A stretch of 64,000 nucleotides of DNA from Flagellimonas algicola (lineage in GTDB: Bacteria > Bacteroidota > Bacteroidia > Flavobacteriales > Flavobacteriaceae): assembly GCF_005937185.1 (NCBI RefSeq), contig NZ_VCNI01000002.1:372001-436000 (forward strand), given 5' to 3'. The notes under the pieces were generated by a model, which was not told the DNA's origin, did not search any database, and saw only the letters and a list, made by a program, of their open reading frames with translations. A program made the position numbers and the translations under genes. Below, piece by piece: positions 53,448 through 57,236 of this stretch (position 1 is its first letter; every line of letters starts with the position of its first letter).

Positions 53448-54389
53448 ATGTCCGCTAATGGTACATATGTAGTTGGAGTGGATATTGGGGGCACCCATAT
53501 ATCTTCTGCCGTGGTTGATGTTCAACAGAAAAAAATTCTGGAGGAAACCTACGCCACCAGTCATGTTGCCAACTTGGAACCCTATGAAGTAATCATGGAA
53601 ACTTGGGCAAGTACATTGAACAAGACCATAAATGCCTCCCATAATTTAGCATTGGAAGGTATTGGCTTTGCCATTCCCGGGCCCTTTAATTACAAGAAGG
53701 GTATTGCCTTGTATCCAGAAGGGTTTAAGTATGGTGCCTTAAACGAGGTCAGGGTAGACCATGATCTAAAACCTTTGCTCATTACATCTGAATCCCTCCC
53801 CATACGTTTTTTAAACGATGCTACTTCTTTTGCCGTGGGAGAGGCCTGGCTGGCAGAGGAAGAAGGATTCAAGAGGCAGTTGTGTATAACCCTGGGAACT
53901 GGGTTTGGTGCTGGATTCATTGAAAATGGGATCCCAGTGGTAAACGGTCGCAACGTACCTCCTAATGGTTGTCTTTGGAATCTTCCCTACAAAGATGGTA
54001 TGGCCGATGACTATTTCTCAACCCGGGGCTGCATTAACGCTTACGAAGAACTCAGTGGAATAGAAGTATCTGGAGTTTGGGAGCTGGCAAAGCGTTTTGC
54101 GTTTGACCCCCTTGCCCAGAAAGTGTTTGAGGATTTTGGTAAGGATTTAGGGGACTTTCTCGCCCCGTGGCTGAAAAAATTCCATGCAGATGCCTTGGTA
54201 ATGGGCGGCAATATTTCCAAGTCGTACGCTTGTTTTGGGCAATCCTTGCAGGCAAGTCTCAATGAAAATGGTATTCCTATTCCTATCCGAATATCCAATC
54301 ATATGGAAAAAGGTGCCATTATAGGATGCACTCGGGTTTTTGACAGCCATTTTTGGAAAAACGTCAAAAACAACTTGCCAGAACTATAA
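53448..54389 (+). CDS. ROK-family sugar kinase without the zinc motif
   Basis: 313 aa, cytoplasmic. ATP-binding motif GVDIGGTHISSAVVD at the N-terminus, GIGFAIPGPFN, catalytic Asp in FLNDATSFAVGEAW, and the phosphate loop ITLGTGFGAGFI. The usual ROK CxCGxxGCxE zinc motif is absent: the matching region reads NGCLWNLPYKDG. Its substrate is therefore uncertain; mannose, glucose or fructose kinase are candidates, mannose favoured by context. Last gene of the mannoside locus. Confidence 0.88.
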   Translation: MSANGTYVVGVDIGGTHISSAVVDVQQKKILEETYATSHVANLEPYEVIMETWASTLNKTINASHNLALEGIGFAIPGPFNYKKGIALYPEGFKYGALNEVRVDHDLKPLLITSESLPIRFLNDATSFAVGEAWLAEEEGFKRQLCITLGTGFGAGFIENGIPVVNGRNVPPNGCLWNLPYKDGMADDYFSTRGCINAYEELSGIEVSGVWELAKRFAFDPLAQKVFEDFGKDLGDFLAPWLKKFHADALVMGGNISKSYACFGQSLQASLNENGIPIPIRISNHMEKGAIIGCTRVFDSHFWKNVKNNLPEL

Positions 54390-54478: not shown

Positions 54479-54645
54479 GGAGACGATTAAACCAAAACCT
54501 TGTCTTAAGTTTGAATTGTAGTTGGTAGTTAAGTTTTATTGAAGCAGGAAGTTAAGTTCTCTTCCGTTTTTGACTACTGTACATAGCGATGCACTTTTCG
54601 GCTTTTGGTCACAAAGTGTTTAGTTTAGTTGAGGTTTCCATTGCG

Positions 54646-54669
54646 CCAAGGAATTCAACAATTCCTTGG
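54646..54669. repeat. Perfect 10-bp hairpin with CAAC loop
   Basis: CCAAGGAATT (54646-54655) and AATTCCTTGG (54660-54669) pair around CAAC. No long T-run follows on either strand, so this may be an RNA structure or an operator rather than a terminator. Confidence 0.6.
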
Positions 54670-54707
54670 TTGTAATGGATAATTTGTTTCCAGTAATTTT
54701 AAATATC

Positions 54708-54732: not shown

Positions 54733-54803
54733 GTTTTAACCAGTTTCCATTCACCCTATCCACAATCCAAAATCTTTCAAAACAGGAAAGCGCAAAAACG
54801 CAA

Positions 54804-54846
54804 CCGTGAACTCAAAAGCGTCATCCGTCAATTGAAACGGGTGGTT
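54804..54846 (+). repeat. Two CCGTnAAyTs repeats spaced 21 bp, upstream of the fused gene
   Basis: CCGTGAACTC (54804) and CCGTCAATTG (54825) are 21 bp apart and match the first cluster. The element CTCAAAAGC-CAT following copy 54804 also recurs after copy 54448. They sit in the promoter position for the gene at 54947. Confidence 0.7.
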
Positions 54847-54946
54847 CATTCATTTAGGGGTCAAATTTCGGATGGATTAATTTCTCTTTGCTCCCTAATA
54901 AAATATGAACCCATGCCTTAACGGCAATAATAAACAACCCCGTTGA

Positions 54947-56629
54947 ATGAAACTAAGAATTTTTATGGTTGGAATTTTGATTATGCTTTTTTCCAACACC
55001 TACTCCCAATCCTATTCAGGATTTTTGGTAGACAATTACAATGGCGTACACGGTGTACTCCTAAATCCGGCAAGTATTTCTGATTCAAGACTTAAACTTG
55101 ATCTGAACCTAGCAGGTTTCAGTGGTTATTTCGGAAACAACTATATAGGGATTGATCTCGGTGATGCCTTCCAAAATATTGGCAACACCTTCAATACAGC
55201 AGAACAGACACCCTTAAAGGACAACTTTCTAGCGGTTAATCTAGATATTCTTGGACCTTCCTTAATGCTGAGTATCAACAAAAACAACTCCTTGGCGATC
55301 TTCACCCGGGGAAGATTCTTCTTTAATGTAGATGATGTAGATGGAACATTATTGGAAAAAGAAGGTGGATTCAATGAAGAAGAGGCATTCTCCATACGGG
55401 AAGATAACGTATCCGGCGCCATTAACTTGTGGTCCGAAATTGGAGCAACCTATTCCCGGGTTTTACTAAATCAGCAGCAGCATTTCTTAAAAGGTGGACT
55501 CACCATGAAGTATTTAATGGGAGCCCATCATGCCTATATTAAAGGAGAGAATATTGATGTGGCGTATGACCCTGACACCGACCAGGTAACCACAACTGGT
55601 GAAATCACTTATGGTAACGATGTTTCAAATAGTGAAGGTAATACACTTGATTTTTCACAATTGAACAACTCAAGCGGGCTTGGTGCGGATATAGGTTTTA
55701 TATACGAATGGAGGCCTGACCATGCCCAGTTTAAATCCACCAATAATGATGGAAAATCGTTGACCAATAAAGGGGCCAACAAATACAAACTGAAATTTGG
55801 CGTATCGGTTACGGATATTGGGAAAATAAATAATAAAGAGGGCGAACAGGTCATTTACGACCTGAACAAGATTCAGGATTATGCCAATTTTGAGGGCGCG
55901 GACTTGGAAGATGCCCTTCAGGGCAATTTTGATGTTGCTCAGGAACTCAATTCAACAGCAAAGACAAGCTTGCCCACCGCCAGCAACGTTTCAGAAGCCG
56001 TCAAGGTTTTGTCCGTGGTAAGTCCGGATGTGGTCTTTCTGGATATTGAGCTCCAGACCGGGCAGGGCTTTGATGTTTTGAACCAAATCAAAGATCCCAA
56101 CTTTGAGGTGATATTTACCACTGCTTTTGAAAAATATGCCATTAAAGCCATAAAGTTCAGCTCTTTGGACTATTTGCTAAAACCCATTGATCTGGACGAG
56201 CTGAAGCAGGCTGTTGAGAAAGCCAGGAACCGCATGGATACCAATGTGTATAGAGAACAGATAGACACCTTGATGCAAAACCTGTCCAAAGAAACCTACC
56301 GTCAGGAAAAAATCTGTTTGGCCACCACCATTGGCATGGAGTTTATAAAGATTGAGGACATTGTTCTCTGCAAAGCCGATGGATCTTATACCTCCTTTGT
56401 CCTGAGAAACAAGAGCAAGCTCATGGTGAGCAAACACTTAAAGGAGTATGAACATCTTTTGGCCGAGCATCAATTTATGAGGGTACATAACAGTTTTGTG
56501 ATCAACCTAAGGGAAGTAAAAAAGTATATCAAAGCGGATGGCGGTTACATTATCATGAGCAACGATATGCATGTGAGTTTGTCCCCTAGAAAAAAAGACG
56601 AGCTGATCGAAGCTTTGAAAAAGCTATAA
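54947..56629 (+). pseudogene. Deletion fusion: DUF5723-like exported protein joined to truncated LytTR response regulator
   Basis: A single 560-aa open frame. Residues 1-344 are an exported protein: signal peptide to about 21 (NTYSQ), then GVLLNPASISDSRLKLDLNLAGF, LGPSLMLSIN and LKFGVSVTDIGKI, as in DUF5723 outer-membrane-type proteins, ending at KTSLPTA without the family's C-terminus. From about 345 (SNVSEAVKVL) it becomes a response regulator: DVVFLDIEL with the phospho-Asp, FTTAFEKYA, YLLKPIDL, then LytTR (about 460-558; FIKIEDIVLCKADGSYT, FMRVHNSFVINL). The first about 35 receiver residues, including the acidic pair, are missing. A secreted N-terminus on a DNA-binding domain is not functional. 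I read it as a deletion scar or an assembly error. Confidence 0.75.
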
Positions 56630-56639
56630 CCTCTTTGAC

Positions 56640-57236
56640 TTAATCTTGATTTTCATCCCCAGATTTTTTAACTAGGCCTTTGGTAAATTCGTTCAGGGCT
56701 TCCACTTTTTGCTCAAAATCCCCTTTTAATGTTTCCCGGTAGGCATTGAGGTTTTTGACCAAATCATCGATATTATCAGGAATCACGTCCTCAAAAAATT
56801 GTCGGAGTCTTTTAGCGGTTGTCGGGGATTTTCCGTTGGTGGAAATGGCCACTTTTACGTTGCCCTTGGTCACAATGCCGCCCATATAAAAATCACAGAA
56901 AGGAGGATTATCGGCCACGTTCACCAAAATGCTCCGTTCCCGGCAATCATTGTAAACTTGTTCATTCACTTCAGGTTTGTCCGTGCAGGCCACAACCATA
57001 TGCTTGCCGTTCAAGAACTTTGGATCATACCTTTCTTGGGTCAGCTCCACTTGGTGTTTTTCCGCCAACTGTTGGGTAGCGTCCAAAAATTCCGGCGCCA
57101 CCATTTGCACCTGGGCTTTGGGACTGGACTTTAAAAGGAATGTAAGCTTTTCCACGCCCACATTACCACCACCAACAATGAGCACTTTAAGGTTGTTTAC
57201 CTTTAAAAAAACGGGATAAAGTTCATTTCTTTCCAT
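56640..57236 (-). CDS. Precorrin-2 dehydrogenase / sirohydrochlorin ferrochelatase-type enzyme (CysG N-terminal domain)
   Basis: 198 aa, cytoplasmic. The NAD-binding start NELYPVFLKVNNLKVLIVGGGNVGVEK is the hallmark of siroheme synthase N-domains. VACTDKPEVNEQVYNDCRERSILVNVADNPPFCDFYMGG and VAISTNGKSPTTAKRLRQFFE complete the fold and dimerisation region. It oxidises precorrin-2 to sirohydrochlorin for siroheme, the cofactor of sulfite and nitrite reductases. No other siroheme or sulfate gene is in the window. Its stop lies 10 bp from the convergent fused gene. Confidence 0.93.
   Translation of the reverse strand: MERNELYPVFLKVNNLKVLIVGGGNVGVEKLTFLLKSSPKAQVQMVAPEFLDATQQLAEKHQVELTQERYDPKFLNGKHMVVACTDKPEVNEQVYNDCRERSILVNVADNPPFCDFYMGGIVTKGNVKVAISTNGKSPTTAKRLRQFFEDVIPDNIDDLVKNLNAYRETLKGDFEQKVEALNEFTKGLVKKSGDENQD

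Follow-up and report, generated by a model that had tools for sequence, protein, structure and literature searches.

In the SprB/SprF-type adhesin loci of Bacteroidota, a type B CTD adhesin is anchored by a PorP-like protein (PMC9143113). LytTR response regulators bind direct repeats, typically 11–13 bp apart (PMC6193735). A literature search on DUF5723 found no paper. The locus described here lies in a 64,000-nucleotide stretch of the marine bacterium Flagellimonas algicola (contig NZ_VCNI01000002.1, positions 372,001–436,000 of the forward strand), hereafter the window, whose genome was designated G000 and compared with relatives of the same genus (Allomuricauda/Flagellimonas). Its central frame was related to two proteins of the genus. 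Like the 718-aa DUF5723-TSP3-OmpA protein of the relative G033, it followed a ROK gene and carried the predicted signal peptide and first ~345 residues (57.5% identity), but the final strands of the predicted barrel were missing, along with the TSP3 repeats and the OmpA domain that binds peptidoglycan. Like the LytTR regulator of the genus (94% identity to that of Muricauda myxillae), it had the phospho-acceptor Asp, the switch residues, a complete LytTR domain, and the same downstream neighbour, but it was placed behind a signal peptide, without residues 1–33, the acidic pair, or the cognate 7TM histidine kinase. The frame is very probably a deletion scar, left when ~13 kb was removed between codon ~345 of the DUF5723 gene and codon ~34 of the regulator gene.

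Architecture of the fused frame

The frame started with ATG at position 54947 on the forward strand and remained open for 560 codons up to 56629, giving a single product of 560 aa. It was composed of ~345 N-terminal codons of an exported DUF5723 protein and codons ~34–250 of a LytTR response regulator. In Pfam searches, residues 41–367 matched positions 1–307 of 376 of the DUF5723 profile (E = 1e-30), residues 334–424 matched positions 18–111 of 111 of Response_reg, and residues 464–557 matched positions 3–97 of 98 of LytTR (PF04397). The first 20 residues formed a putative hydrophobic Sec-type signal (MKLRIFMVGILIMLFSNTYSQ), as judged by inspection and hydropathy. The open reading frame and the Pfam matches bore out the earlier note, which had described one frame joining an exported DUF5723-like protein to a receiver-truncated LytTR regulator. 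The frame is far beyond chance, as each half matches its family along hundreds of residues and corresponds to a single-gene ortholog in relatives.

The first part (54947–55969, forward strand; PF18990) came from the 5′ end of a gene for a DUF5723 outer-membrane protein and covered the predicted signal peptide and ~341 codons of a predicted barrel. The domain stopped short of its usual C-terminus, as had been noticed before, its profile match ending at 307 of 376 while the G033 protein matched 1–375 of 376 and continued into OmpA. Structure predictions were of low confidence (pLDDT of 46 for the fusion and 58 for the intact DUF5723 protein), and the low-confidence DUF5723 model had many long strands, about five of them past the cut.

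The junction was placed by codon alignment to the DUF5723 protein of G033 and to the regulators of G033 and M. myxillae. It fell at codons 342–345 (LPTA, TTG CCC ACC GCC; window 55970–55981, forward strand), where HLPTALH of the G033 DUF5723 protein (codon 344) meets VLATASN of the regulator (codons 31–37). The switch had been read earlier as in-frame, which was correct, and as lying at about 55980 with SNVSEAVKVL, which was three codons too late.

The remaining part (55982–56626, forward strand) contained codons 36–250 of the regulator, as defined by Pfam and the M. myxillae ortholog. The regulator part was without its first 33 residues, slightly fewer than the 35 or so estimated before, and the acidic pair (VEDE, residues 9–11 of the orthologs) was gone, as that estimate had included. 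Strand 1 and helix 1 of the receiver were missing. Still in place were the whole LytTR DNA-binding domain, the two switch motifs FTTAF and LKPID, and the phospho-acceptor Asp (residue 366, in FLDIE).

Ancestral cluster in related genomes

In G033, G009, G026, and G050, DUF5723 and the regulator were encoded apart from each other on the same strand, with a histidine kinase gene between them. This arrangement, which the earlier note had proposed to look for, supported the deletion scar among the options it had listed. Of the intact genomes, G033 matched the DUF5723 part best (58%). Its DUF5723 region was located at C10:302285–303307 and its LytTR gene at C10:288477–289127, with 13.1 kb between the positions matching both sides of the junction. 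The gene order in G033 was MFS, ROK, the DUF5723-TSP3-OmpA gene, a 1530-aa adhesin, PorP/SprF, a dienelactone-hydrolase-like protein, small proteins without a Pfam match, a histidine kinase, the LytTR regulator, and a siroheme-synthase-like gene. The 1530-aa protein was SprB-like, its Pfam matches being HYR, the SprB repeat, and the CHU_C type IX signal. The 615-aa histidine kinase had a 7TMR-DISM region, and its gene overlapped the start of the 250-aa regulator gene by 4 bp. This order recurred with some variation in G009, G026, G050, and others. As an observation on the cluster itself, the G033 locus (L094, 2475–17308) represents a cluster in which a SprB-like adhesin and PorP/SprF are accompanied by a 7TM histidine kinase–LytTR pair of their own, and which has been deleted repeatedly across the genus.

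Both flanks of the cluster were preserved in the window. On the left was a ROK-family sugar kinase (53448–54389, forward strand; PF00480), which adjoins the DUF5723 gene in G033, G009, and G059. On the right was a siroheme-synthase-like NAD-binding protein (56640–57236, reverse strand; PF13241), which adjoins the regulator in most relatives. The cluster resembled the known SprB/SprF loci in having a CHU_C/SprB-repeat protein beside PorP/SprF and an OmpA-domain protein nearby; it differed in that the nearby OmpA protein was a DUF5723 barrel and not PorE, and in that the cluster was deleted in G000.

Probable loss of the intervening segment

The search for lost genes in G000 was carried out with the kinase and three other genes of the cluster, the adhesin and PorP families both having many paralogs. 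No kinase ortholog was found in G000, the best matches being paralogs of 37–42% identity, and the 130-, 210-, and 331-aa proteins had no match there. These three proteins matched other species of the genus at 40–72% identity, so the empty answer from G000 is informative. A translocation or inversion of the missing half was considered on account of an OmpA-part match at G000:C7:1064464–1065240 and was rejected: the match, 637 kb away, belonged to a complete, independent 452-aa OmpA-type protein with its own N-terminus. Because the kinase and three-gene searches were negative and the OmpA match was a separate protein, the intervening segment was apparently lost and did not move elsewhere in the genome.

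The same searches bear on an assembly collapse, in which the 13 kb would be present in the organism and skipped by the assembler. The ancestral interval does contain a long repetitive adhesin, often an assembly breaker, and in several relatives a contig ends inside it. However, the junction lies outside the repeats, its ends share ~8 bp, which is below k-mer collapse size, the single-copy lost genes searched for were absent elsewhere in an assembly of 99.91% completeness, and comparable deletions occurred in other genomes. A collapse is unlikely, and we give it very little weight.

The ancestor of G000 would have carried the cluster in the order MFS-ROK-DUF5723/OmpA-SprB-like adhesin-PorP/SprF-hydrolase-small genes-7TM histidine kinase-LytTR regulator, and a single deletion of about 13 kb, as sized in G033, would have joined the two genes. 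While the gene order, the breakpoints, and the absence of the lost genes searched for were observed directly, the mechanism was probably illegitimate recombination at short homology. The codons common to both ends are L-[PA]-T-A (LPTA in DUF5723, LATA in the regulator), and assuming that the ancestor had the codons seen in the window, the ends would have shared TG-s-CCACCGCC (s = C/G), a microhomology of ~8 bp. This overlap and a 6-base overlap, GTGGAT, at the junction of another scar (G056) would fit such recombination. An in-frame outcome is expected in one of three deletions of this kind; that of the window was in frame, presumably by luck, and that of G056 was not.

Predicted fate of the product

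The full-length product would have a Sec signal and about the first three quarters of the DUF5723 domain and, from the established biology of receivers and of export, should neither assemble nor reach DNA. It would be exported via the signal peptide with a barrel devoid of its last strands; its receiver would be unable to bind Mg2+ or to be properly phosphorylated, and the protein would be degraded or inert. The earlier point that a secretion signal would keep a LytTR domain away from DNA was sound for this product. With the deletion, the two-component system and the adhesin operon, its probable target, would have been lost together. In all likelihood the fusion protein is a remnant of the deletion rather than a novel protein type.

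Distribution of the fusion and recurrent deletions

Among the 73 genus genomes searched, a single frame covering both halves was found only in G000. In a search of 199 genomes of the family, the matches listed were the two halves as separate genes, with no fusion in the other 198. A conserved natural chimera, one of the possibilities raised before, found no support in this distribution.

Several relatives carried other remnants of the same locus. In G056, of the same genus, the identical gene pair was joined and the regulator was cut about four codons away from the position in the window, but the DUF5723 gene was cut at codon ~147; the regulator (from codon ~38) followed out of frame with an immediate stop, so no fusion protein is encoded. 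In G020, the first ~40 codons of DUF5723 were joined to regulator codon ~150 in a different frame, a very short scar. In M. myxillae, ROK was followed by the promoter region, then by 43 codons from the end of the kinase gene, and then by an intact regulator. Only 3′ pieces of the regulator remained in G043, G062, G061, F. aquimarina (L042), and L044, and some of these pieces were interrupted by stops or frameshifts; G061 and G062 were sister species in the rpoB tree and had one scar in common. In several species of the genus, neither gene was detected at the thresholds used. Two further observations concern individual loci. The separate deletion in M. myxillae (L009, 5607–5912) leaves an intact orphan regulator behind the operon promoter, which may be self-regulated. 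In G068 (C1:823908–824870), the DUF5723 frame was only 440 aa and a regulator ortholog was not found at high stringency; it is possibly another independent deletion.

The closeness of the regulator breakpoints in G000 and G056 leaves room for an older history, in which one deletion joining DUF5723 codon 345 to regulator codon 34 was inherited by both genomes, another ~0.6 kb was then lost from G056, and the frame has long been open and functional. The DUF5723 gene and some core genes also group G000 with G056. The regulator, in contrast, groups G000 with M. myxillae, whose regulator is intact, by 5:0 informative residues and 93% bootstrap on the protein, although in the regulator tree a G000–G056 grouping was not rejected (AU p = 0.185). 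Across rpoB, a nine-gene core set, the flanking genes, and the regulator, support on G000 and G056 was conflicting or weak, and the core phylogeny was without resolution. Independent deletions in G000 and G056 are favoured, and the shared event is decidedly improbable.

Candidate promoter region and upstream RNA element

The region at 54801–54890, upstream of the DUF5723/adhesin operon, was conserved and was retained in several deletion scars. In an alignment of upstream regions from 21 loci, the promoter core TCTCTTTG (in some TCTATTTG or TCCCTTTG) was conserved in all 21, and the window carried a candidate promoter −7 region, TAATTTCTCTTTG, at 54878–54890 (forward strand). Upstream of it, candidate regulator-binding direct repeats with a period of ~21 bp were located at 54801–54855 (forward strand; CAACCGTGAAC, CATCCGTCAATTG, and GGTTCATTCATTT), likewise conserved in the 21-locus alignment. 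They are similar to the direct repeats that LytTR regulators bind, and in the window sequence alone they gave no significant match to the general LytTR consensus. The conserved promoter core and the ~21-bp repeats upstream suggest that the kinase–regulator pair may have controlled the adhesin operon. As the promoter with its candidate repeats is intact, the scar is probably still transcribed.

An intergenic element of ~130 nt was present between ROK and the DUF5723 promoter (54564–54695, forward strand). Its core, AAAGTGTTTAGTTTAGTTGAGGTTTC, was nearly invariant across 35 loci of the genus, and its consensus structure had two stem regions, one a short stem and the other a long hairpin resembling a terminator; 10 of 26 pairs showed compensatory changes. 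The element was single-copy in G000, Rfam gave no significant match to it, and a strictly filtered search of 148 other genomes of the family did not find it. It was present in most deletion scars and absent from M. myxillae. The element is a candidate genus-specific small RNA or leader.

Conservation of the two halves

With G033 as the outgroup, the regulator part of G000 had 7 lineage-specific residues and the intact M. myxillae regulator had 5. The protein branch of the G000 part was 0.038, as compared with 0.026 and 0.039 for intact copies. The DUF5723 part showed 345 codons without a stop or frameshift, and any excess in rate was inconsistent. Dating of the deletion by dN/dS was dropped owing to saturation of silent sites between species, and relative rates were used instead. 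By a rough estimate, unconstrained evolution over a few per cent of the branch would give a visible excess. Because the regulator remnant is as conserved as an intact ortholog, the deletion must have happened recently unless the fragment still has some role and is under constraint. If the frame is purely a scar, the deletion must be recent to leave both halves undecayed.

The second of these possibilities would be realized if a receiver-truncated LytTR domain were produced from an internal start, remained in the cytoplasm, and bound DNA at its own promoter independently of any signal. The conservation of the regulator part agrees with this proposal, as do its position downstream of a conserved promoter with candidate binding repeats and an internal ATG at codon 430 with AGGA upstream; the regulator copy of G056, truncated in a separate event, is likewise largely conserved. 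Yet intact orthologs conserve the start-like codons too, so these do not point to a newly arisen start. Frameshifts or stops occur in other remnants (G061 and G043), both the kinase and the operon that was its likely target have been lost, nearby intact copies have shorter branches than G056, and a recent deletion explains the conservation equally well. Production from an internal start is improbable. It is likewise improbable that the fragment has become a rewired regulator, a kinase-free LytTR domain that would act on DNA at its own target promoter from an internal start, with parallels in G056 and in M. myxillae (intact regulator).

Implications

As a deletion scar, this apparent exported transcription factor warns against annotation of such frames as new signalling proteins. 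Its analysis also exposes an adhesin/SprF cluster with its own 7TM kinase–LytTR pair as repeatedly lost in the genus, and the candidate structured RNA upstream of it, specific to the genus, may prove more valuable than the fusion.
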